The notes under the pieces were generated by a model that was not told the DNA's origin, searched no databases, and saw only the letters and a list, made by a program, of their open reading frames with translations. From contig PJRA01000263.1 in the NCBI GenBank assembly GCA_016987375.1, forward strand, positions 2,158,781-2,222,780: a stretch of DNA of 64,000 nucleotides, written 5' to 3'. Origin of the DNA: Brachionus koreanus (Eukaryota; Rotifera; Eurotatoria; Ploima; Brachionidae). Of this stretch, positions 3,001-29,200 are shown piece by piece; the first letter of the stretch is position 1; each line of letters starts with the position of its first letter. Both the position numbers and the translations under genes were made by a program.

Positions 3001-6000
3001 GACAAAAGGTTTTAGACCCAATATACTAGGTTCTAAGTAGACCATACCGCATCGACTCACTGTTGCTGGACTAGCAACTGCTAGATCAGCCACTTCAAAC
3101 ATCATAGTCATAGCTTCAGTCATTTTGATAATTTCTCCATTAGTTAAGCAAAGTTTTTTATTATCGTCTAATACAGTATTCATATTCTCGATCCATACAG
3201 CATCTACCGGACCATCGAACAGATACCATCTTTTATCATCATTTTCAGCTTCTACTCCTTGGCCCATCAATACAGACAAAATACCGTCAGTCCACTCATG
3301 TGTCATTAGATCAAATTCACCATATAATTGACCCATGGTTATTGACTTTGGGTTTAATATGTAAGTATGAACAACTTCAAAAGGGGTTCCTGCAGGTGAA
3401 GGCTGACCAGCTAAAGAAGTCATGGCTGCTTTTAAAGTTTCATAGCATTTTGTTTTTCCAGAGCCCGTTGGACCTACCAACATTAGACCGTGACGGACGA
3501 CGGTTGTTTCATAGAGCTGAATACACTTTAGAATAAAATTATCAACATCTTTTATATCCAATTTAAAACATGATTTTCTAAGCGAGCTTTCCAAAGCACC
3601 ATAATCAATCGGCTCCTCTCTTAAATTAAAATTTTAAAGAAAAAATACTCAAGATTCTAATTCTTACTTTATTTTAGGAAATAAGTCTGATACTATGCCA
3701 TTAAACAGTTTTAAATCATCTTGTAAAAATTTAGGTACGTTCACATCACGAATAGCTCTTAAGCAAATTAATTCCTTATAAAAATTTTTTAGTGGCTTAC
3801 TATAATAATAAATTTTAATGAAATTTTACTTCATTCATGTCCGGATTTTGTCTCTTAAGGTTTCCAGCTGCAGAAATTACTGACTTGACAGCTCTCATAC
3901 CAAAATCATAATGGTCTTGTGAGCTAAGCTGTTCGGACGATAGTTTAAAAGTAGTTACAATTTTTTTAGCTAAAGTTTTGGCATCCGAAAAACCAAAAGA
4001 AAATAGAGATATTTCTGCGATCAAAGCATAATCCGGTACCATCATAGCAACAGGTCGAAACAAAGCCTTTTTTATAACTATTTAAAAGACGAAAAATGAA
4101 TTAATGTTTAATACTTTTAAATTGTCTGGTAATTCGGTACGGCCAGCGTATCCAGGATTCATAGTGATAAATACAGCACATGATGGCTTCAATGCTATTT
4201 CAACTCCTTCAAAAATGAATCTTTCTGCCTTTAAAATACCGATTAGCAAAAAAACTTATTGAAAATTTAAGTTAAGTGATTACTAAGCTAAATAATTAAA
4301 AGAGCATAAATTTTTTAAAATAGTCATTCAAAAATAATCTTTTTATTTTTCAGATTATTTTTGATTAAAATTCAAGAATAAGTTTTAAAAAATTTGCTTA
4401 AAAAAGCCTAGATAATTCGTTAGTTTGAAATAGATAAATACTAACTTAAAATTAAAAAATTCTAAAAAAATAATAGAAAAATGCACAAGAATTCATTCAA
4501 AGATTAAATAAAAAATGCATAAGGATAAATTAATTTCAAGTATTTTAATTTTGATCTCAGTTTTATTTATTTTTTCGAAATATTATAAATTTTTCATATT
4601 TTACAATTGAAATATTTTCCCTAATTTTTAATAGACATCATTATTAGTGAATAAAAATTAAAAATTTTTAATATTTGATTTTTGATTTTGAAAAACAACA
4701 CCAAGAAAACCTAATTGAATAATGCTAATAGGTAAAAAAAATAGATCTAAGCTAATGGGGTAATTAGTTGAGTTAGGATTTAGTTAATAAAAATTTTTAT
4801 GCTTTTCAACTTTTTTCAAATTTCAATGAAGTATTTTTGTCAATTGATCAAAAATTTTGAACAAATTTAAAAAATTAAAAAAAAATGAGATCAAATTTAA
4901 AAAAAAAATTGAAATATTACAAAATTAAGTTTGAGATGACCATAAAAAGAAAGTTCAAAATAAAATCAGGGAAAGAAATTTAGATCTAATTGAAAATTAA
5001 TAGAATTTTTATCATGCTAAAATTATTTTGGTTCAAAAAATGAACTAAAACTAATGTTTTCTGAACCAACATTCTAGATTTTCTTATAATGAAAAAAAAT
5101 ATTACGCCGCTTCGAGCCTATTAAATATTTATTTAAATAAATTAATTTTGTGCCACAGAAAAATAAAGACAATAAAGCAAACCCGTTGAGTAAGAGCTTG
5201 TTGAATCTGTTGAATTTGCTGAGCAACTACTGATAAGACTTCTATATCGATACGATTAAACTCGTCAAAGCAAGCCCAAGCACCAGCGCTAAATTAAATT
5301 TAAAAAATATTGATTTGTTAATTAGCATCTAAGTTGGATATTTTGATTTTGCCAAGGGAGGAAGAATCAAGGATAAAAGCTAAAGCTAATGCTCTATTTC
5401 AAAATATAATTGTTTAGAGCTTTTTTCACTCTTGTTTTTCTACCTTATTTCTTAAATTTTTTTGTAAATAGGATATCTGTTGTGCAACAACAGAAAGGAC
5501 TTCAATATCTATTCTATTGAACTCATCAAAGCAGGCCCATGAACCAGCACTATTTCAAGTCAAATAAATTAGTCAATTAACACTTGGCAAATTTTCTAAT
5601 ATATTTTTTTATTAAGATCACTTACCTGGCTAAGCCCTTGAAAAATTTTCCCATAGCCATAAAATCAAGCTGATCTGAACAATTGAATACCACACATTGG
5701 ATAGCCATCGCTTTAGCTAAATCTTTGGTAGTTTCTGTCTTACCAGTTCCTGCAGGTCCAGCAGGTGCACCTCCAAATTTCAAGTGCAGTGCACCAGTCA
5801 ATGTCAAATAACATCTATCTGTTAGAGGTGTGATTACCAAACGAGATGAATTTCCCAGATATTCATAACCATATAAAAATTCTGCATTCACTGCTCTGAT
5901 ATACAAATTATCATTCATATAATAATATCTTAAATTGAGGAAATAAAAATTTCAAAAAATTTTATAAATTTTTTAATTTATACCTAAGCTGACTTATCCA

Positions 6001-9000
6001 TTCAAAATCATTAACATCAGAAACTTTTTCATTAAGAAGATTGATAACTACATCCCTCGCATGTACTTCAATTACAATAAGAGCTGATAATGTTTGTCTT
6101 GCTTTAGAGCTTAATTTTCCTCGGACCAACTCTCTCAAATCGTCAAGTTCTTTTAGTTGCTTTTGATGATATTCAGGTAAATTGTTTTCTTCTAAAGCTT
6201 TACTGACAAGTGTTGTCCAGTATGTCTGACAACCGGCTATAACAACCTGACCAGGCCATTCAATTACCCAACTTGTTCTCGGTTTCTAGAAACAAATATT
6301 TATTTAAAAAAAAAAAACAGCTAAATATATTGTTTTTGAATACTGTTTTGTAATCTTCTAAAGAATCGCGAATAATTTGTCTTAAGCTTTCTTTCATGAC
6401 TCGTTCAATTTCAAGCATCCAATCTTCAACATTACCAGTGGGATATATATTTTCTCTAAATTCAACTCCCTCATTTTCGGCTGAATACATTGTTGATATT
6501 CTCATGTCTTTTTCGAATTTTACTCTATAAATGCTTTCGAAACATTTACGCAAATGTGGCTGAACAGCTTCTGGATCTTTGGTCTTTGAAAGAATTTCCA
6601 AGAGCTCATCATCGGATAAGAAGTAAAATCTCGGAAACGAAGTTCGTTTTGTTTCTAAGTATTCACTCAAGCCTTTTTGGACTTGTTCTAATAATTTATT
6701 GCATTCTTTTAGTTGGTCTCTTAAGCGCGCATCAGGACACAAGCTTATTACCTTAAAATAAGAAATTTTTTAAGTTTATTAAATAATTTTCAACAAAGCT
6801 TAATTAAATATCAATTTATTTTTTTTTAATTAACAAAGGCTTTTTGAAACTTGATATAAAAAGAACAAGACAAGATTCTAGAAAAAAAATAATATTTTTC
6901 AAATTAGCTAAAAAGGGGTCTTTACATAATAGCATATAACGAAATAGCACATAACGAAATAGCCAATCAAAAATTAATTTTTAAAAGAAAAATAAAAGTG
7001 TTTTATTAAATGTCAGAAATCAATTATCGTTTATATAAACTAATTATTTATTTGGATTTATAAGATACATGTTCGCAAATTTTCAACAATCTTTCATGTT
7101 TCAAATTATCAAAATCGTCTAAAAACGCTGCTGCTAAACTCATTTTATCTTTGAATTTTTTTTAAGCTATTATGAAAGATTTTCATTACATATTACACTG
7201 TAAGCGATCGAGGTACATAACAATGTACAAAAACTGTGAAAAAAACATATATGTGCAAAATTATAGTCTGTATTTTTTTGAAAAATATAAGTGTACATTT
7301 AGCTTGAAAAAAGAGTATAAATTTATTGATTTTAAAATATTTACTTTTTTGAAAAAAAAATTTAACAAAATATACAAAATTTTTTATATTTTTGATAAAA
7401 AATTTTGTACTTCAATGTACATTTTAAATGTATAAATATTGTGACAGAATTATTTTTTAAAATGACATCTTTTGATATGTAGAAACTAATATCGGGAGGC
7501 AACTAAATTGTTCCTAACACAAGAAGATCAGACAAAACATTAATAATTATTTTAAGATTATTTTACAATATCAAGTCATTAATTTTTTTAATTTAGAATC
7601 AATTACATCAGAAGCTTAAGCGAAAATTTTATTCAAATAGATGTGGTGACATACCCTCCGAAGAGATTGTACAAGCTCGTCTAAAGTATGCTCGAAAGAA
7701 TCCATATTCAGATAGAATAAAAAAAAAGCAATTCAGATGCAGAAATTTCAAATGAAATGGACCATTAATTTTTTTGATTTTTTAAATTTAACTTTTTTCA
7801 ATAAAAAATTAAACATAAATTATTCTTATTTTTAATTTATTCTAATAAATTATGCACAAAAAACCGTCTTTAAGATTGTACATTTAAGTGTTGAGTTCAA
7901 ATATTGAAAATTAATGTCAAAAAAGAAAAAAGTACATTTAAGTCAAAAAAATTTTGCAACATATATATACATTTTCTTTATTTGTATATTTATGTGTGTA
8001 ACACTCGAATTTTAACTTAATACACAAAAAATTGTACCTCGATCGTTTACAGTGTATCATACGTGTGCTATTTTGACATGTAATACATTACAATATAGCA
8101 GATTAATAAAAAAATGCATAATTTTAAAAAGTGTTGCTATTTCGTAAAAGTGTATAGCTATTTCGTAATGCGTGCTTGCTATTTTGTAATGGAGTTATAA
8201 TTTATGATATTTAGTAAGGAAATTTATGTGTGTATGCTATTTTGTTATGGAGCCAGCTAAAAATCAGTTCTGCTTGTACAATAAATGTTTTTGAATTAAT
8301 TGATTAGGTCTGCTATCACGTGCAAAATCTCTGACAAATGCAATGTGCTTAGTAAAATAGAAATAAATTTCTTTTTTAAGTTACAAAGTTTATGCAGATA
8401 GACTGAATTTAATTTTTAGCTACCAGGAAAATTTTTTTTAGTCTTTGAGAATTCTGTAATGTTTATTTTAGAACCAATTTTAACAAAAACATTTAAAACT
8501 TAGTAAAAAAATTTAATGTGTTTTTAAATTAAAAAAAAAAATATTATCATTTCAAAGTAAATTTTTGATATAAGCAAAAAAATCTTAATTCTAATAATAT
8601 TTTGATAGTTCACCAAAATTTCCTATTGCTAATAGTTTTTCTTATTAATATTATTAAAAATATTTTTTCATTTCTGTAAATATTATGAACTTAACAATGT
8701 AATTCTATTTTTACAATACTACATGTATATTTCAAATAAACAATAGCAAAAGGAGTTTTATAACTCAACGTCTATTTATAAATAAAAAAATCTAAAAAAA
8801 AAAAGAGACTGCGTTAAATAATCTTAGAAAAACGAACATATTCTTAATTTTTTTTAACTGAAGTTAGTAATAATTCTATTTATTTATATATAATAAAATC
8901 TAAAACAAAATAATCAAAATATAGATTTTATACAAATATAATTAGTACTTTTTTTTTTATATTTTGATAGGTATAGCGCATTAAAATTACTTCTTAATAG

Positions 9001-12000
9001 ACAATTAGCTGATTTAGATATAATTAATAAAATACTTGTGTGTCGAATAATTTTTTTGAATACTGGAAACACCAGGCATTTTTTCATGTTTTTAAAATTC
9101 AAAAATATTTTGAAAATAAACTATAGTTATCTTACTAAATAATATCATTTTTAAAGAAAATTTTAAAATTTACATAACTCAAAAAATTCAAAAAATCTAT
9201 TCAATTACAAATTAATTTTTATTTGATGCTTTTGCTGCAAAACAGCTGTTCTTATAGTAAGTCAAAAGTTCGAAAACTACAAAATGGTAGATAATTTGCT
9301 CAAACACTTGTTTTTTTTCCTAAGCTAGCCTTTGATTGTGGAGGCTGATATGAGATATTATTTGGAATTTTTCTATTAAGAACAATTTTTCTTTTAAAAT
9401 TGTGTATTTGACAAAAGTAAAAAAAATAAAATAAATGGCTAACATCAACGTTGTTTTAACTGCATTGTTGTACAGTTGAACTTTTGTTTCATTTTAATGA
9501 ATTTTTTGTAAAAAAAAATGAATCAATTTTTATTATATTTGACACTATTTTATCAATTATTTTTAAGTTAATTAAAAATAATCCTGCTTTCAGTATTTTT
9601 GTTTTATACAGTATATACATTTAATTTTAAGCGATTTATCAAAAGTGGACTTTTATACCTGATTATAAATTTTACTCTTTTGCCTATGAGGCTTGAATTA
9701 ATAAATAATAATAATACATTATACCGATAATTATTTTTAGTTAAAAATAATTAATTTCTTTCATCAATAAAAATCGAATTAAAGGATGAGATTTATCTGA
9801 TTATTGCTTTAAAATGACAAGTTAAATTTTATTAAGCAACATCTTATTTTAAGAAATATCTATTTAGTTTGAGAAAACCATAATACTTTTTTTATAAAAG
9901 AAGGTAGTTTATTAATATGTTATATTTGCTGATTTTTTTTAAGCATAAATGGTAATCAAATGTATTTTTGTCAAATATTTACTAAAACTAATAGATTAAA
10001 TGTAAAATTAGAAAATTCTGTAAGCTATGTTAACTAAAAAAACTGTCTTTAACTACTAACTAAAGTATTTTCAATTAATGATAAATATTTACTAGCTAAC
10101 TAAATTTTCCAATGATAAGAAACAAATTTAAATTATCATCCAGTTTTTAAAGATTTTTAAGGAAAAGTTGGTATTAAACGTAAGAATATTTACATTAATA
10201 ATTATCAAATTTTTTTATTGAACAGAATTTTTATTTAAATAAAAAAGTTGTGTTAATTTAAATTAATATTTGAAAAAAGAATTAACCAGTAAATTTTGAA
10301 AAAAAATAAAACCTAAAATAAGTGAAATCTCATCTTTGAAATTATCACTGAATTCGAAGAAAAAAAAATTAATTACTTTAGTATTTTTATCTATTTTGCT
10401 TTACCTTCATAATCAACTCTAGTTTCGAACTCGTCACGTCCTTGCTTATCAAATACTACAATCGTTAGAGAAAAAAATTATCACTAGTCACGAGGTATTC
10501 GAAAATGGATTCAAATAGAATTTTTTTTCTTTTAAAATAAATTTTTCTTAACCTGAATTTAAAATTTTTAAACAATGACTGAAATCGAAGTTCCCATAGA
10601 CACCACCAGACTGCTTGTCGATGGAGTTTTGGATACTTGCACAGACGAAATGCTTCAGTTGTACATTAGTCTCATAATAAATTCTGATTTGGATGAGACT
10701 TTTAAAATTGAGGAATTTCGTCGCAACAAGCGTCGAGTGATGCTTAAGTTTAATCGCAGTTTTAAGTTTGACCAAGCCATAAATAAACAAAAAAAACTAC
10801 CTGAGCTAACAGGCAATTTGATTATGTTAGATCAAGTCAGAACTCCGGATACTATCCGAGTGTCTGAGTTGGCCAACAACTGTACCAAAGAGGTCCTAAA
10901 CTTGTATTTTTCCAACTCAAAAATGAGTCAAGGTGGTGACATAAAATCAATTAAACTCTTTCCCTATGAAAATAAGGCTTTAATTCAATTTGCTGATTAT
11001 CGTGTGGTTGATCAAGTTTTGACCAAAACTCATATAATTTGCGAGAATCTTATCAAAATAGAAAAGTACTATGGCCCTATTGAAGACGAGTTTTTTCTTG
11101 ATGAAGAAGAACAAAAAACCGAAGAAAGTGAAACTTCATCTGGAAGAAAAAAATCGCTTTCCAGCATGACTAGTCTCAGGTCGTTCTCTACACCTTTAAA
11201 TACTATAGATAAAACTAAAATTGTTTTATCCAATATTCAGGAAAATATTAATATTCAACACTTGGACTTTTATATACAAATTCTATGCAATCGGCATGAA
11301 ATAAATAGCATTAATTGGAGCTTAGAAAATAAGGGTAAACTTTTAATCGATTTCAAAAAAGAAATTGATATAAACAAAGTTTTAACTGAGTTTAACACGA
11401 ATAATTTGAATAATTTAAACTCGAAACAGATTCAGATTGAGACAGTCAATGCAACTAGAGCCATAGTTGTATTGGTCAAGGACATAAAGCCCAAAGTATC
11501 ACTCAAATTAGACTCGCAGAACGAGGATGACGACTACAGGCCTGAAAATATACCAGCCACTAGAGACTTGTTGGATTTGTATTTTAGCAATAAACAAAGA
11601 AGTGGTGGAGGCGAAATAGAGTCAATAGAAAGAAAGTCGTCACGATACTGGATCATAACAGTGAAAGAGCAGCGTCTAGTCAGAGATATTTTGTCCAGAA
11701 AACACACTTTGGACGACAAGCCAATTAAAGTGTTTCCCTATTATGAAAATTTCGGCTTACCGTACATGTTCAAACCAATTTTTGATGACCTTCAAAATCG
11801 TTCTGTCATATTCAAACTTAAAATCAAAGACGAACGATTGCGCTATTTTTGTAAAGTGAAAAATTTACACAAAAAATCAAATGAGATTTTGAGCGAGTCA
11901 AATGCCGAGTCCAAATACAGCAAACAAGAGTCAAACATTTTGTATGTGAACTATATTGAACGTTTAAATTCAAAAGTTCCGTATACGGAACGAATGTGGC

Positions 12001-15000
12001 GACTTAAAGTAAAAGAGTCAATTGAATACTTTTTACAAATATATAAATTTGAAAAATTGACTCTAAGCCATCAACAATGGACGACCATTTCAAAGACCAA
12101 ACAAATTAGTAGCTATTTGATGGCAAAAAACAGCAACGCTGATGAAATCTATCAAGAAACAGACGCAATCGATGCTACTTCTGTATTAGTTGATAAGGTC
12201 AAATATATTAGTAGCAATTGTGCTATAATAAATATTAACGAAACAGCAAGCAATGTGGAAATAAATATAGTTGGGCCTAATATAGAGGTGGATCGATTTA
12301 TAGTCAAAATAAAGGATATTATTTGCAAGGCGTATTTTACTTTTGAATTAGAAGAAAAGATAATCAAATTTAAAACTTATTTATATGAATGCGAGGATTT
12401 GCTGACTAAATGGTTGAATGAAGCAGATGGCATTGAAGAAAATGAGAATGAAGTAACACTTGCTTCGGCTCGATCAAATGATAGCGACTCTTTTTCGGCA
12501 AATTACTCGAAGCGAAATGATGGTAGCAAATTGAATAAGAGCAGAAAAAATACTATCGATGAATTCCTATCCAAATTGGAACGCGATCATTTGGATATGG
12601 AGCTATCATATGGAAAATTGTTCCAGGAGTTGGGCTACACATTTTTGAGTAATGCTGGTAATCAGGATAATGAAGAAGAAGATGATGCTGACTACAAGGA
12701 TTTTAATGATCGGCTTAGCAACAGTTTAGAGGAGACTGTGATACTTAAGCCAGGCGAACAAACAGAAAGTCAAATGGATAAGATTAAATTTACGCTCGAT
12801 GACTTGAGAAACCGTATAAATGATATGAAAAAAAAATTCAGACAATTTGTTATCAAGTCAAAAAGATCGAAGGCGCTCAAAGAAACCGATTTAAGCGAAG
12901 ATGAAGAGTCTGATTTTGATGATATTGAAAATGAAACTGACAGTGATATGATTAAGCTTTGTGTTTATGTAAAAGATCAAGCTAAAATTGTTACGTTTAA
13001 CATGAACCGAAGATGTAAAGTCAAAGAACTAAAGCAAGTTTTAGTTGAAAAATGTGCTGATGCTGAAGTTGATTCTATCAATGAGCTTAAGTTAACTTTC
13101 AATAACGTAGAGCTGAGCAATAATAATTACACCATTTCAGATTATGATATTGGTGACAAGAGCACCATAACACTTGAATTCAAATAGATTAGTTTAAATC
13201 TATTAACTTTAAAACATTTTTAATATCTAATAAATTAATCGAATAATTTTTTTCTTAATTCCCTTTTAAAAAAGTCATAAATTAAAACTCAAGTTAAAAT
13301 ATAGTAAATAATTCACATGATACATTTTTATTTTAATTAAAAACTTAACTGAAATAAAAAAATTGCATTTATGAAATACTTTCAATTTTTTTCATGTTTG
13401 TAGTTTTGAGAATGGAAAGACTCTCATAAAATAAAACTATTTTGGCACTTGAGTAAATTTTCATGTCCGTGTTGGAAGAAAAAATTTGTTTCATAAAATG
13501 CAATTGGTATCCGTTATAATAATGGTTTACTTTCATTTAGACTCAAAGAATTCAGTAAGAATTAAAAAACCTGCTTTTTTCACACTTTTTTATTATTTCT
13601 TATTCTCCTAAAAAATATATTTTTGCTACTAATAAAAATAAATTTTCAACTATAATAATTATTATCCTTTATTAATGGTTTTAATCATGATAATAATTTT
13701 ATTGTAAATATAATATTATTTTTCAAAAGAAAAATGTTTGCTTAATAAAGCGGGGTTTGCAAATTTATTTAAAGATTTTATATTCAAAAACATTTAAAGT
13801 TTTTGTCAAAAATTCCTTCTGAAAATTTTATTAACTAATACCTTAGTTTGTAACATCCGAATTTTGTATGTTCAAAAACTCAGCTAGTATACAAAGAACT
13901 AATAGCAATTTTAAAAGTAAGTTGCTGAAATTTTACATAGATTAAATTTTCTTATTCCTAATGCTTTGAGATTTTTAAAAAAACTTTAATTTAGAAATTT
14001 TAATAGCCTTTGAAATGATGGGAAAAAAAGTAATTCTTAAAAACAAAAACTAACCTCTGGATTTTCTTTGGCTTGCTTCATAATCTTTCGCCACATTCTT
14101 TCCATTGTTTGATACCTTTTACTCTCAACCGGAAGCTGTCTAACTATATCCTCTGATGAAAAAATCGGCTCTAAATACAGCCATGAACGTTGACATACCA
14201 ACCATTCATCAAGTACATCCTTTAAAATAAATTAAATAAATTCAAATGAATCTTCAATAATAAAAAAAAACAAAGCGATCCACAAGTTTTACAAGTTTAA
14301 TATAAAATTGAATATCTTAGATGCTTTTTAGCAAGATTTTTTATCGCTATGTTTCTAAAAAATACAATAAAAAAAATTTACCTGAGTGATTTTTAGTTTA
14401 TTCTCCCAAGAAGAAATTCTTTCTTCAAAAGCTTTTTTAAACGGCGAAAATGACATACTCTGAGTCATTACTATATGATCATCCAACAATTGTGAAATTT
14501 CATCTGAAGCTTTGACAATAGAAGTTCCAGTGTTCTTATAGGGAAGCACTTCAAACTTAATTGATTTCCACTCGCCTTCCATTTTGTCCAAGGCTTGCTC
14601 AATCGTATATTCTTTTCCCGCTATTTCTGCAACCTTTGATATTTTATCTATGTGACGATCAAAGCCCATTTCAAGGCATTTCTTAAAAGTAAGATCTTTT
14701 TTGGGACGCACGGGGAGTTTGAGCTCCTCAGTCAACATCTCCCAATGTCTGTTTCTCATACCTGGATTACGCAAAGCTTGTATTAAAGGGATGTTAGGAC
14801 GGAAATCTTCTATTTGATTTTTTATTTCCACTGCGACATGTTGTACACCTAAAAATTGAAAGATTAATTAAAATTTTTAAATAAATTCTTTTTGTGCTTT
14901 AAAAGGATAAAATTACTTTATTTTACATATATTTACACTTTTTAATTTAAATTTTATTTACATAAAATGAAGTAATCTACCTTTTCTTTTTTGTTTTAAA

Positions 15001-21950: not shown

Positions 21951-24900
21951 TCACTCAATGTATAATAGATAATTTTTTATCCGTTTGGGCACTGGTAAAT
22001 CTTCAATACTTTCAGTAACCTGAATTAGACTGCTCTTGTTGTTCAAATCATTTGCCAACTTTTCGTTTTCCTTTAACCGATTGAGTATCATTCGTCTACA
22101 AATAGATCTTAACGATCGTGGACTTGCCACTAAGCGTTCCAAGTACAAATCCAGCGATTCAAGCGAATAGACTTTTTGAGTTTTGGGCAAATTTTTTTTG
22201 TGGTGAAAACTATGATGATGCTGATGATTATGATGCGAACAAATTTGGGCTTCATTCACTAAATTTTTTGCCAAAATTATCTCATTTAATTTAGCATTTT
22301 CCATCGAGTCAAACATAAGTTTGACAAATCTTTTGTAATAATTCAAAAATAGCACCATGCTATCTACGACAATATTGTTTGATTTTACATTTGAGGTAAC
22401 ACTAACTCCATTTAAATTATTAAGTGCAAGCAAAGAGACAAACGAGGGCGATGGAGTTAAAAGACAAATTGGATTGGAAAGATGATTTTTGCGAGCTACC
22501 AAATTGGGAGAAGCACAGCCTTCAGACATTCGTCTAGTTATTTCGATCTCTTTTTCGGAGATCAAAGGCGAAACATGGTGATTTAAAATGCGATCAGTGG
22601 CAGATGCATGACCTTGTTCGTTTATGGTCGCAAAAACTTTGTCTTTAAAGTAGTCATTGAAATAATTATGATGGTGATGGTGATGATGACTGTGATGATG
22701 CCTCTGCTCGTCATTTTTGTGATGAGGCCGCTGATGTCGACTCAAATTGACACTGGTCAATATTGGTGACGGTCTTTCAGTCAAAAACGGATCACATAGC
22801 TGAGCTAATATTGAATTGTTGACTTTTAAGCGATGACTGCTAGACGAGTTTAGATTAAATGGTTCCAAATTAGGATCAGCTCCATGTTGGATCAATGTTC
22901 GCATCAAATCGTACACTAGTTCCATTTGATAGCATGTCTTGCTCAAAAATACCAATTGAACACAGTGATTTAGTAAATTATTTGACTGTATGTACTCGGT
23001 GCCGGCTTGTACTTGACAAGTCGAATCGTTCGGATCGTACAACTCATTTTTGATCAATTCAATTAGTATATTTTTAATGAAATTATTTTTTTCAAATTGT
23101 TGACTTGAATTTAAAAAATTTGGATACAATATCCAATTAGTAATTAGTCGTTTAACAACTTGGGCATTTATGAGCTTTGACCAATTTTTAAATGAAGATT
23201 GAAGTTTAACTCTTAATTTATTATTTAGACACATTTGAAATTTTAGCAGTATTTTGAAAACTTCATTAGCCGAGCTAAAATCGTCTATTTGACAAACTAG
23301 CAAAAGCTCGAGATATTTTTCAATAGAGCAATCTCTTTGCGGTAATCTAAGCAAATGGTCTTGATTGTTCACAGCACTGACTGTGTTACTCAATGGACAA
23401 TTTTTGCTCAAATTTAACCTAATCGAATTTAAATCAATTACATCATTTAAAATGTATTCTAAAAATTCGATGTCCAATATTTTATGAAGATTAAATTTAG
23501 TTATCTTTGGACTTGGTCTGTTGGTGTCGATATTGGATGGTGAACGATTGCGAAAGTTCTTGCGAATCGAATGCTTCAGCAAGTTATTGAGTAGTGTTTC
23601 GACACAATTGTGGTAGCCCTCGTTTTCAAGCTCTACATTGTTTATGTTGAGAAGAAGATCAGCGCCCGACTTAAGCAACAATCGCAAACATTCCTTGAAC
23701 TCGGCCTTCCATTCGTTACGATTTACTTTATCATTCTCTTTGAAGAACACAGTCTCGATCAGCTCGTCCCATTCGAACAACGATTGTAAGCAAAGCTTTC
23801 TCTCGTTGTTCAAAGTGTTCACATGGGTCTTGAGACCGCCTTTTTTGAGCATCAAAAAAAGTATTCTCGACAAACTCTTTGGATCGTTGTACTCGGATAG
23901 AACTTTTTTGCTTCGGGAAAATTTGCTAGTCACATTTTCGTTAAACAAACAGTGCAAAGCCGTGTTGCCAGTGATCGGCTCACGCTTAGTCAAATCAAAG
24001 CCACAATTTAGAAGAACTTTGATTATTTTAGATGAACGCGTATTTTCCAATATGTAAAACATGGTATTTACATTCTTGTTAAATACGCGTCTCTTTGAAT
24101 TAGAGTCTAGTAAATTTGGCAAACTTTCACTATTCAAATTGGATAGCAAATAGACTAGGCAATTTTTGGACTGAAATTTAATGGCATAATAAATGAGCTC
24201 GTAGTCCTCATTGGGCTTGAAATAATTGAACAATAACTGATGATGTTTGTACAAACGCGAAAATATGTCCACGTCGTCCAAGCACAGCGAAGCCATGATC
24301 GGCGACAATGGTCTCAATTCAACTTCTCCAAGCTGATCCGGCTCTGAATCGACCTCGTCGCCTGTCTCACTATTGCACTCCGATTTGCTCAAATTGTACC
24401 ATTTTTTCAGCATCAATTTGGATTTTTTGTTCATTTGTCTCAAATTGCTCAAGCTTAATTTGGAAATTAGATATTTATCGGCACCGTTGTTTAGTAACAA
24501 GTCGACTAGTTTAAGTCTCAATTCATTTAGCTTTTCATAAATGAAATTATTTTTAGTACTTAAGTTGCTGCGTGTCGAACATGTGGTCGATTTTGGATTT
24601 AGGCTCTTGCAATGTTCATTTGAAGATACCAACGAATGTATCGAGGTTGATAAGGAATTTTTGGGTCTTGAATAATCAAAATAATTTTCGCTTGAGTTTA
24701 ATTTGTAACATGCTGAATTGCAATCATAGTCATATTTGTCATAGTAGTTTAGCTCATCTTTTTCTTTATAGTCGTACAAATTGGACGAGTCGACTGATTC
24801 AGAGTCCGAACCATCGTCGCTTAACTCCTCGTCCGAGTTGTTCGATTCGGTATACGAAATAGGATTGAAATTTTCGGACGATTCGGACTCGGATTTGGTC

Positions 24901-26216
24901 ATTTGGGCTTTGTTTACTTTAGCACTAGTTTTGAATAATTTTGATATGGAATCGGCTGATTTTGAATAGCAGCTTATTAGCGATGAATTAAATGAGTTAA
25001 ATGAAAGACATGAAGAAGACGAAAATGAACTGGATGAGTGGGTTTTGGTCGAACTGGAGCTGGACGACCAGAGCGAGTGCAGGTCCGAATATTCGTTGTT
25101 TATTGAATTGAGCGAGTTGGAGCGAGACAATTGATGCTTAGTGGACTTTTCAATAAATGTTTCAGTTTGAATGGTGTTTCGTCTGTGCGGCAAATAGTCG
25201 CTCACCAATGGTGGTGACACTGCATGTTGAGCTCTTTTTTTATTCAAATTTGAAAAACTTAATAAATTAGTAGAATTATATACACAGCAAATTATTAAGA
25301 GTGGCGTGTCTATTGGAATTTTGCTTAGATCACAAATGCTTTTCTCGTCTGTATGATTGGTAATTATGGCTAGATCAATGTTGGTAATGTAAGAACAGGG
25401 TGATGTCGACCTAGGCCGTGGACTTAGTCGAGTAGGTGAATTTTTTACAATTGTGTCCGCAGTTACTTCACTAGGCGTGTCTGATTCTATTTTAGTTTGA
25501 TCCTGATTAGGCATGTCGCCATCACTTGAACTTACTTCAAAATCTATGAGTACATTGTTTGAACGAAAGCTTTTATTTTCGTGAAAATTTTTTAAATTTG
25601 GCCGTTGTAGTTTGGGCGTTTTTGTGTCAAAAATCAAGTCGTTTGAGCTAGCAGATACTTCTATGCAATATTTGGTCTTGTTAGTCAAAAGCAAACCACG
25701 ATTCGGATCACACGAGTAGTTTTTGAGCAACAAAGAAAATAAGTTTAGTCGTTGACAAATCAAATAGTCATAGTCGTTTTCAATATTGGACATGTTTTTT
25801 TCCATGAAAATTTTGAAATTTTCAATCAATACATTGTGTGCAAGTTTTAGAATTGAACTGGTCATGGTCTGAATTAGATTGTAGCCGTTTTGTTTGTTGG
25901 TTATCAACAAAAGATCCTTTGACTTGAACGAATCAATATTTTGAATTAGCAAATGCATCAGGGTGCTTATGTTTTTTGAGTCGAATTCGATCAATTTTTC
26001 TAACTCGGCTATAGTCAACTTGTTGCTCATTGACAACAGATTCAACTGGGATCTATTCTGGTTCAAAAGTTTGACAAGTTCGCTCTTTGATACATAGTTG
26101 AACAACTGCTCCACTAGTTTTATGTCCGTATCGGTTAGGTCACGACCTAACAAATTATACAATAAGCTCGAGCTTAGGTCGATTACTGACAGAGCTGTGT
26201 GCCATATAAAATTCAT
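21951..26216 (-). CDS. Large intronless ankyrin-repeat protein with C-terminal SOCS box (ASB-like)
   Basis: One open frame of 1,421 codons from ATG 26216. The decisive feature is the C-terminus: SLRSICRRMILNRL (~residues 1365-1380) fits the Elongin-binding BC-box pattern (L..xC..), followed by DLPVPKRIKNYLLYIE, a Cullin-5-box LPxP motif. This is the SOCS box of ASB-family substrate receptors of Cullin5-Elongin B/C ubiquitin ligases. Ankyrin-like units are recognisable: TGNTALHCLFNE (~750), LLLKSGADLLLN (~850) and LIQHGADPNLEP (~1110). Low-complexity Ser-rich (~390-430), acidic and His-rich (~1175-1190) stretches separate them. Human ASB proteins are usually 300-600 residues, so this is unusually long. 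Its target is unknown. Confidence 0.85.
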   Translation of the reverse strand: MNFIWHTALSVIDLSSSLLYNLLGRDLTDTDIKLVEQLFNYVSKSELVKLLNQNRSQLNLLSMSNKLTIAELEKLIEFDSKNISTLMHLLIQNIDSFKSKDLLLITNKQNGYNLIQTMTSSILKLAHNVLIENFKIFMEKNMSNIENDYDYLICQRLNLFSLLLKNYSCDPNRGLLLTNKTKYCIEVSASSNDLIFDTKTPKLQRPNLKNFHENKSFRSNNVLIDFEVSSSDGDMPNQDQTKIESDTPSEVTADTIVKNSPTRLSPRPRSTSPCSYITNIDLAIITNHTDEKSICDLSKIPIDTPLLIICCVYNSTNLLSFSNLNKKRAQHAVSPPLVSDYLPHRRNTIQTETFIEKSTKHQLSRSNSLNSINNEYSDLHSLWSSSSSSTKTHSSSSFSSSSCLSFNSFNSSLISCYSKSADSISKLFKTSAKVNKAQMTKSESESSENFNPISYTESNNSDEELSDDGSDSESVDSSNLYDYKEKDELNYYDKYDYDCNSACYKLNSSENYFDYSRPKNSLSTSIHSLVSSNEHCKSLNPKSTTCSTRSNLSTKNNFIYEKLNELRLKLVDLLLNNGADKYLISKLSLSNLRQMNKKSKLMLKKWYNLSKSECNSETGDEVDSEPDQLGEVELRPLSPIMASLCLDDVDIFSRLYKHHQLLFNYFKPNEDYELIYYAIKFQSKNCLVYLLSNLNSESLPNLLDSNSKRRVFNKNVNTMFYILENTRSSKIIKVLLNCGFDLTKREPITGNTALHCLFNENVTSKFSRSKKVLSEYNDPKSLSRILFLMLKKGGLKTHVNTLNNERKLCLQSLFEWDELIETVFFKENDKVNRNEWKAEFKECLRLLLKSGADLLLNINNVELENEGYHNCVETLLNNLLKHSIRKNFRNRSPSNIDTNRPSPKITKFNLHKILDIEFLEYILNDVIDLNSIRLNLSKNCPLSNTVSAVNNQDHLLRLPQRDCSIEKYLELLLVCQIDDFSSANEVFKILLKFQMCLNNKLRVKLQSSFKNWSKLINAQVVKRLITNWILYPNFLNSSQQFEKNNFIKNILIELIKNELYDPNDSTCQVQAGTEYIQSNNLLNHCVQLVFLSKTCYQMELVYDLMRTLIQHGADPNLEPFNLNSSSSHRLKVNNSILAQLCDPFLTERPSPILTSVNLSRHQRPHHKNDEQRHHHSHHHHHHHNYFNDYFKDKVFATINEQGHASATDRILNHHVSPLISEKEIEITRRMSEGCASPNLVARKNHLSNPICLLTPSPSFVSLLALNNLNGVSVTSNVKSNNIVVDSMVLFLNYYKRFVKLMFDSMENAKLNEIILAKNLVNEAQICSHHNHQHHHSFHHKKNLPKTQKVYSLESLDLYLERLVASPRSLRSICRRMILNRLKENEKLANDLNNKSSLIQVTESIEDLPVPKRIKNYLLYIE

Positions 26217-29200
26217 TTTTTGGATTAGCTTTTTATTATGCTTGCGATTAAAATTTTTCTATTTCTTCATTTATCTAAAAAAAAAAGTGATTTAAATTAA
26301 TAATTATGCCCATGTAGTTAAAAGATTTCGTGTGTTTGTTTCTTCTTGTTGGTAAGATGGACCAATATTTCTAGCCGTGACACACCTAATAATTTGAATT
26401 GAAAAAAAATTATAAATTTTGACTAAAATTATCAAAATGATAAGGTGGTGAAAAAAAACGTGGCCGCAAAATAAAATTGCCTAGAAATGAAAAAATGTAT
26501 TTATTTTTTTTTTTGATAAATGAAACATTATTAACTGTAAACTTTGAATATAAACAAAGTAAAATATTCAATTAGACTTTGATCCAAAACAAAATTATGA
26601 ACAAAAATGCAAATTTTTGTTCAAATACGCTTGAATTAAAAATTATTTTAAATTTTTGAGATTACCGAACAAAAGAGATGGATTGTTGTTGTTCCATTCC
26701 TAAATAATTTAATTTTTGTCTTTTAAATTATTTCATAATAAATAAAATTTAAGAAAAAATCTGATGAGATTAAATGGTGTTTTAAGGCGCATTTCAAACC
26801 AATATCAAGACACTAATAGCTCTAAATTTAGGTTGCTTAAACTAAAAACTCAATATTGCTTGAGCTATGTATTTAGAGGAGAGAATCACGAGTTTCGCTA
26901 GTGAGTGAGGATATTTTATATTTATAATATTAACCTATGAATTCAATTTCGTTTTAAAATCATATGTTTTTTCTCTAACTTAAAAATGCATTTAAATCAA
27001 ATTAAACGCTATCGGATTGTTTAAGATAGTACTTTTGCGATTAATTCCTTTTTGAATGTTTAGCGATAGCGTGTCTAATTTGATAAGATAAAAATCAACT
27101 AGTCTATTCATGTTCATGAAAATTCAAGCCACTTTAAATAAATAAATAAAGTGTTATGAATAATCATGTGCTGTTTGTTATCTTTTGTTTATTAATATAA
27201 GCACACAAATCAAAAAATATGATGCAATTTTTTCATTTTATTACTCAATCACCTGGTTTCACAAATTCTGCTTTCTAGGCCGAATCTTGTAGAGAAACCA
27301 TGTCTGGAATATAAAACCTTTCAAAAGGTGTCAAAACATCAAGCTTTTATCGAAATTAAAATACCTGGTGACATTTTATCAAGTGACCGAACAGTAATAC
27401 AATCTATAAAAACAAAAATAATCACTTAAAAAAACTTGCTGTTTTTAAATTTAAAGCTCATAAAAATTCATGACCTTTTTAGAAATGAACTTAATTCTTT
27501 AACCTATATTTTTCTTAGACTAGAAAGGTTTAGACTAGAAACAGCTTGTTATGTCCTAGTTTATATGTGAATTAAATTAAGTTTAGAAAAAAAATTACAG
27601 ATATAATAGTTAAATAATATATAATAAATGATTATTAAAAACAAATGAATAGTTATATGATTATAGAATTATTAATTGAAAATGGAAGATACCGCAGGAA
27701 AAATAAATTTGCAAAGTTAAAAATTTATATATTTTTTTGGCGGTTTTTGAAAATCGATGTCAAATATATATTAATATACGAGTGAAAAAATTTATTAATT
27801 GCAAAATTGAGTTATATTTTTAGATAGCAATGAAAACTGTCTAAAGGCTTAGAGAAAAAACTAAAAATAGAAGCTATTTTGTTCGTATATGCGATATTAA
27901 AATTTGGGTGATTTCTCAATTTGGTTCTCTTCTCTAATGCTCTAATTTAACAATCATTTAAATACTATTTTTTTTTCGAATGTCGATGAAAATTTACTAT
28001 TTCTGTAAATTAAAATAGAACTTTGGTAACTAAATTTTTAATTTGTAGAAATCACTCGCTCAGCTTATGCTTTAATTAATGATACGATTCTCGAGATACT
28101 CAAATGCATAAATTATTATAGTTTTAAAATATTTAATTTAAGCCCTGCTAAAAAATAAAAAAAAAACTAAAGCGAATATTTGTAAGTCAATGAGATATCT
28201 ATTAACCATTTCAATTTATGTATTTTTTTATCTCTCTTTAAGAGAGCTTGCGTTCACCAAGTGATCAAATAAATGATCGACGCCTGATCTAAAGAAAGCT
28301 TCTGTTGCAAATCATGAGTTTTTTTTACACGATATTCAATTAAAAAAGTAAATTTTTTTTTCTAAATTTCAATAATTTTGTAAAAAATCTTCAAGTTAAA
28401 ACCACTAAGTGTAAAATTTAAAAAAATCAATTTCTTTTACGGACAAGATAATTCTTTGAAAATATTTAAAGAATTTTTTAACAACAAAAAAATTAAAACA
28501 ACTTATAAAAAAAATTAATAAAAATTTTAGATGTTTCAAGTTTTTAACACTTGTTTTTGTACACCACACAAGTCCACTGGCTTGGTGCCTCAAAAAAAAT
28601 AATTTTATAGACTTACAATGAAAAATCAAAATTAAAATTTTTGACATTTATTTGCTTTCAAGTTCATATATTTTCATCTTTAGTTTGTCGGCTTTTTGTG
28701 CGGAGTTGAAAAGAATTTACGATAATCAAAAAAATCATTTGTACTTAGATTAAGTGTTATTAAAATTTCTTAATTTTCACATTACAGAATAGCAATTAGT
28801 CAATACTTTAGAAATAAAATCAAAAGTTTAAAAGCATAATAATCAAAAATAAATTTTATTTAAATTGTCATATTGATTTTGAATATTGGTTTACTTTTTT
28901 TAACACTCAAAAACCGGATGACTTTTTTGACCCTTTTATTTAAATCATTTTATTTACTCTTTTTCAATGAAAATAAAATTATTTTATAGAAAAAATTAAA
29001 TAATTTTATGATATTTTNTTATTAAATTTATTGAATAAAAAACACATAAAGGAAGTTACAAAAGGGGTTCAAAAGACCCCTTCGGTTTTTGAGTGTTAAG
29101 CTTCTAAAGGAAATTAATAGACCATATCTCAAAAATTCATAAATATCTTTAAAAAGGATTAATTTTAAATATTTCGTATATTATTATCTTATTTAAAAAA

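Follow-up and report, generated by a model that had tools for sequence, protein, structure and literature searches.

The window analyzed here, a stretch of 64,000 nucleotides of Brachionus koreanus DNA with a G+C content of 26%, comes from an assembly of 83.3 Mb in 92 contigs. Its first 19 kb are occupied by the dynein heavy chain gene DNAH1, which lies on the minus strand and extends past the window start. Antisense within a 7,303-nt intron of this gene (6752 to 14054) is an open reading frame (ORF) of 870 aa (10575 to 13184, plus strand) with PARP14-type RRM domains and a weak ubiquitin-like C terminus. Farther along, a minus-strand ORF of 1,435 aa (21954 to 26258) encodes a C-terminal SOCS box and one ankyrin-type match.

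The DNAH1 gene and its doubled exon

A splice-aware model trained on the window initially yielded 28 exons. Two of these (11737 to 11554 and 11193 to 11120) were removed as spurious, being antisense to another ORF and breaking up the DNAH1 match, and the acceptor at 5928 was placed manually to make the split codon read RYYY. The final model, which is without the first exon or exons, comprises 26 exons and 4,151 residues, and its 35-nt intron may be wrong. The identification of the gene as DNAH1, an axonemal dynein heavy chain of the inner arm, made earlier in a sequence-only reading, was borne out. For the AAA1 segment, the best three of 89 matched PDB sequences are DNAH1 chains (345 to 350 bits; the next, DNAH3, scores 290.6), and over 2,977 residues the model shares 92% identity with P0004, a protein named DNAH1 in Brachionus calyciflorus.

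Table 1. Exons and introns at the doubled segment of DNAH1 (positions in the window)
Feature	Position	Strand	Basis or remark
Upstream constitutive exon, 303 nt, AAA1 Walker A motif, ends in split codon AG	5626..5928	-	Gene model, hand-set acceptor
Intron before exon B, 76 nt, GT-AG	5550..5625	-	Sequence
Exon B, 106 nt, alternative copy	5444..5549	-	Sequence; B-type exon also in Brachionus calyciflorus P0004
B-A intron, 155 nt, GT-AG	5289..5443	-	Sequence
Exon A, 106 nt, canonical rotifer-type copy	5183..5288	-	Tail close to bdelloid QQIQVINQALMQK
Intron after exon A, 954 nt, GT-AG	4229..5182	-	Gene model
Downstream constitutive exon, 114 nt, begins at codon boundary	4115..4228	-	Gene model
PS-I hairpin and sensor I stretch in downstream exon	4115..4228	-	PS-I motif per PMC4047620

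The exon pair is real (Table 1). Both exons are entered after a split codon (AG/N) and left at a codon boundary, each encodes the same segment of 35 to 36 residues, and the two are identical at 70 of 106 nucleotides (66%); coordinates, lengths, and phases all agree with those first read from the letters. It had also been claimed that inclusion of both copies would break the frame, and this holds in the modelled protein: A alone or B alone keeps the 4,151-aa frame open, B and A together lead to a stop at residue 1566, and the absence of both leads to a stop at residue 1534. One detail had to be corrected. The copies had been said to differ directly after the Walker B acid, but the variable residues (27 to 36) begin 17 residues past the Walker B glutamate; residue 4 is the sole variable position outside them.

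When exon A is searched by tblastn in the 36-kb gene region, exon B is recovered with an E value of 4.7e-15. For the other 25 modelled DNAH1 exons, the best off-target match in this region has an E value of 0.022, and no second doubled exon was found among them. Exon B DNA has a single match in the whole genome assembly, and this, together with the saturation of synonymous sites between A and B described below, argues that the pair is not an assembly repeat.

Doubling of the segment was not seen at other dynein heavy chain loci. Searching the genome with an 80-residue dynein sequence produced 20 matches, 3 of them at the DNAH1 pair and 17 at other loci, each of which was examined with about 1.5 kb of flank per side; 15 of the 17 carry one copy of the segment and none is doubled, while at the remaining two (L013 and L014) there is no copy, their match beginning past the segment. 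Two pairs of loci (L006/L007 on C2 and L019/L020 on C37/C16), lying apart in the genome, have identical Walker B segments of 40 residues; one such pair sits on opposite strands of a single contig, and these may be either recent gene copies or assembly haplotypes. A search with the upstream exon found 11 loci in the prokaryote genome collection and 0 in the viral collection. Ten of the 11 have one copy of the exon-equivalent segment and one (L050) has none; these loci were found in bacterial bins, have the look of protist contamination and of other dynein classes, and have no bearing on the pair. Five of the dynein heavy chain loci (L040 to L043 and L049; JAIYDP01) lie in a pond Verrucomicrobiaceae bin, which must therefore contain eukaryote contigs.

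The same exon in other species' proteins

Among the hits listed by three protein searches (the best 120 each of 3,160, 3,958, and 919), there were 276 distinct proteins, and 280 segments had the searched motif. The comparison covers annotated proteins, as representatives of 90% clusters, which mask isoforms. Among the matches listed, most of the 280 segments have the canonical tail, and the tail QQITTIQKAQQQR occurs in 183 of them.

The sequence-only reading had proposed a comparison with related species, and a B-type exon is indeed present in one other Brachionus record. This is B. calyciflorus P0004, the sole Brachionus-named record among the matches listed and the representative of a 14-sequence cluster, in which 30 of 36 residues are those of the window's B. 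Farther afield, A and B together appear in gene-model form. The protein of the bdelloid Adineta steineri (P0036) has QQIQVINQALMQK, followed at once by a second, trimmed copy and then by the PS-I exon, and that of the annelid Paralvinella (P0005) has QQIATIQKALTQR, 24 intron-like residues, and then a second copy. Such cut or read-through models are as expected when two full copies share no frame. The odd copy is 5′ in Brachionus and 3′ in Adineta and Paralvinella, and the Rotaria record (P0014) has one copy only. The whole AAA1 module occurs twice in the Exaiptasia (P0001) and Acipenser (P0002) records, where gene-model or assembly effects are likely.

In two molluscs, an alternative version is found in a named isoform: the abalone Haliotis (P0035, "isoform X3") carries MQIMTITRAQLQK, and the clam Ruditapes (P0060, "isoform X2") carries MQIMTITRAQKAK. 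These two have 34 of 36 exon residues in common, compared with 28 to 30 of 36 in five comparisons of one or the other of them with Patella, Lottia, Pinctada, Mya, and Mytilus. In a tree of 32 sequences, built from some 1,000 residues surrounding AAA1-AAA2 minus the exon and read for topology without support values, Haliotis falls with limpets and Ruditapes with Mya. The sharing of 34 of 36 exon residues despite this separate placement would be expected of an old alternative exon. Physella, Pomacea, and Babylonia have two DNAH1-type records each, at separate places in the tree, which suggests a duplication of DNAH1 in gastropods.

Not every feature of the alternative tails need be derived. Among the matches listed, the R31 and K36 seen in the mollusc and annelid alternatives are shared by dyneins of chytrids and other non-animals; they are found in another dynein class of the B. 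koreanus genome as well (L003), and M24 is present in two otherwise canonical tails (Mya and Tubulanus). These residues may be retained rather than new.

One broader possibility, to which we would give a little less than an even chance, is that the Walker B/H3 exon is a site of splice switching across the Spiralia, whether inherited from a shared ancestor or repeatedly invented, and that through it many ciliated spiralians would make one inner-arm dynein in two mechanically different forms.

Selection, splice signals, and rival readings of exon B

A dN/dS-type comparison of the copies, as had been suggested at the outset, gave opposite results for the two parts of the exon. Codons 1 to 26 of A and B show 15 synonymous differences over 16.3 sites, which is saturated, and 3 non-synonymous differences over 61.7 sites; 25 of the 26 residues are kept. 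When the same 18 base changes were simulated under neutrality 20,000 times, the mean number of changed residues was 12.0 and the minimum was 6, against the 1 observed. With synonymous sites saturated and a single residue changed, both copies must long have been kept to a common Walker B and early H3 sequence: past purifying selection acted on both, and the exon pair is old. The pattern is reversed in codons 27 to 36, where there are 15 non-synonymous differences over 24.2 sites; the tails thus diverged while Walker B and early H3 were conserved.

The splice signals of the copies are uneven. Scored with a leave-one-out matrix from the 25 model introns, the acceptor of exon A reaches −0.04, and that of exon B reaches −4.12, which is under all 25 model acceptors (the lowest being −0.6) and is equalled or exceeded by 82% of 561 decoy AGs. 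The donor scores are 1.15 for B and −0.38 for A, the latter being third lowest of 25; since the order was reversed when A's own site was part of the matrix (−0.44 for A and −1.25 for B), the donor difference is not robust. A 12-mer at the B acceptor (5547 to 5558, minus strand), TTGAAATAGTGC, has a one-change copy, TTGAAATAGAGC, inside the B-A intron (5391 to 5402, minus strand). The copy may be a decoy acceptor, although it may also be due to chance.

Several routes to exclusive use of duplicated exons have been described, among them steric interference, secondary structure, decay, and trans-acting factors (PMC5224494). A B-A intron too short to be spliced can be rejected, because 155 nt exceeds many working introns (13 of the 25 model introns are under 60 nt), and U12-type incompatibility is not indicated, the splice sites around the pair being GT-AG. 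Nor does B have a useful alternative acceptor upstream; by eye, the only nearby one that keeps the frame runs into a stop. A search for pairing elements had been suggested for the intron of about 155 bases, but in eight comparisons among the three introns and the exons, none went beyond shuffles, the observed energy being reached by 30 to 90 of 100 shuffled sequences. Rfam gave no match at gathering thresholds over 4000 to 6800. As the intron is not too short and no pairing beyond shuffles was seen in these comparisons, use of one exon of the two is best explained by regulated choice of splice sites together with decay of frame-broken products.

Taken together, these data make it very probable that A and B are a mutually exclusive exon pair derived from tandem duplication of one DNAH1 exon. 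This had been the central claim of the sequence-only reading; its anatomical basis stands, and purifying selection, the B-type exon of a second Brachionus, and the tandem or alternative versions in a bdelloid, an annelid, and two molluscs speak for it.

The most serious alternative is that exon B is a decaying duplicate which once worked and is now rarely or never spliced in this species. Its weak acceptor suits decay of B as well as regulated choice. Comparison of the two Brachionus proteins also shows 6 changed residues out of 36 in B and 17 out of 500 in its flanks (one-sided P = 0.003), with an F-to-L change beside the Walker B acids among the differences in the P0004 exon; B is less constrained than its neighbors. 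However, the frame of B is open, its GT and AG are intact, and it has kept Walker B and early H3 in spite of saturated synonymous sites. When neutral drift of B was simulated at 0.3, 0.5, 0.8, 1.0, and 1.5 substitutions per site, which are assumed values rather than estimates from the two species, 0 of 4,000 runs at each distance had six or fewer changes and no stop, so B is still far from neutral unless the two Brachionus species are very close. Moreover, a B-type exon is used in the protein record of B. calyciflorus. On balance, we consider decay of B unlikely.

Exon B might instead be a regulatory (poison) exon, mostly joined to A, that lowers DNAH1 output through the early stop at residue 1566. 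The intron between them is, as noted, long enough to splice. Such a role would not require conservation of the protein, yet B has kept nearly all residues of its first part, and B alone gives an open frame; we regard this reading as very improbable. An assembly artefact or misjoined allele is hardly credible, since at 66% DNA identity A and B are too distant for alleles, exon B matches only once in the assembly, and similar pairs are found in records of other species. A recent non-functional duplicate or an artefact was what the sequence-only reading had itself named as the outcome that would count against it, and both are opposed by the evidence of selection, the B. calyciflorus exon, and the records of other species.

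Proposed use of the two exons in the motor, and known systems

If A and B are mutually exclusive, each working DNAH1 mRNA would carry one or the other, flanked by the Walker A exon and the exon for PS-I and sensor I. Exon A would probably be the default choice, and B, with its poor 3′ splice site, would probably need an activating factor in certain ciliated cells. Where B is chosen, its donor would be joined to the downstream exon and A would be skipped; transcripts with both exons or neither, which stop early, would presumably be removed by nonsense-mediated decay, and use of one of the two would thus be enforced.

The exon encodes the AAA1 Walker B strand and helix H3, with the variable tail at the end of H3. 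If the Walker B glutamate of yeast dynein is taken as residue 1849, the exon would end within about 1 residue of the start of the PS-I insert. That insert spans residues 1874 to 1892 (table in PMC4047620), and the start of the next exon fits the PS-I motif by eye. The two proteins would therefore share the Walker B strand and the first part of H3 and would diverge over the final ten residues of this helix, from which the chain passes into the AAA1 PS-I hairpin, close to AAA6. Of the two tails, that of B is the more basic (K31, R34, and K36, compared with only R36 in A) and has Asn in place of Ala at residue 32; we infer that it likely alters the coupling of the AAA1 ATP site to AAA6 and to movement of the ring. 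Such motors would form a natural pair differing almost solely in ten residues beside the PS-I hairpin, through which the role of PS-I could become testable.

Axonemal dyneins are usually thought to have diversified by copying of whole genes. If the present reading is true, exchanging one exon of the main ATPase module would offer an inexpensive way of equipping different cilia with different motors, and the finding of the same exon doubled or varied in the records of other spiralians adds to its interest. Males are not known in bdelloids, and a pair that worked in Adineta would therefore argue against a role confined to sperm. A 2016 survey by Kollmar, said to cover dynein evolution, may hold an earlier mention of such a switch. 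In the open literature, judged chiefly by titles and the openings of abstracts and including PMC2674883, we found no description of such a switch at this position in DNAH1.

The type of system, a tandem exon pair for mutually exclusive use, is a known one, of which the DNAH1 pair would be a new instance. Exons Ab and 3 of U2AF1 are described as likewise duplicated, with uneven splice signals, and their double-exon transcripts as lowered by decay (PMC5224494); that gene, however, encodes a vertebrate splicing factor with studied regulators, and for the DNAH1 pair none are known. Substitutions of tandem duplicated exons in human genes, as summarized in PMC9741552, resemble the DNAH1 pair in being old copies with a conserved core, and they are reported to have evolved independently in orthologous genes; "DNAH" and "dynein" are absent from the main text of that paper. 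The exon clusters of arthropod muscle myosin heavy chain also swap part of a motor domain, and are said to tune mechanochemistry (PMC3228551), but there are several well-studied clusters per gene, in contrast to one dynein pair known from its letters. The closest known system is the mutually exclusive exon pair that the same source describes in SmDHC1 of Schistosoma mansoni (PMC3228551). SmDHC1 is a cytoplasmic dynein, not DNAH1, and its exon has split codons at both ends, whereas the DNAH1 exon has one only at its 5′ end, so that the two are not the same exon in phase; what they have in common is a pair of equally long homologous exons midway along the dynein heavy chain gene of a spiralian animal.
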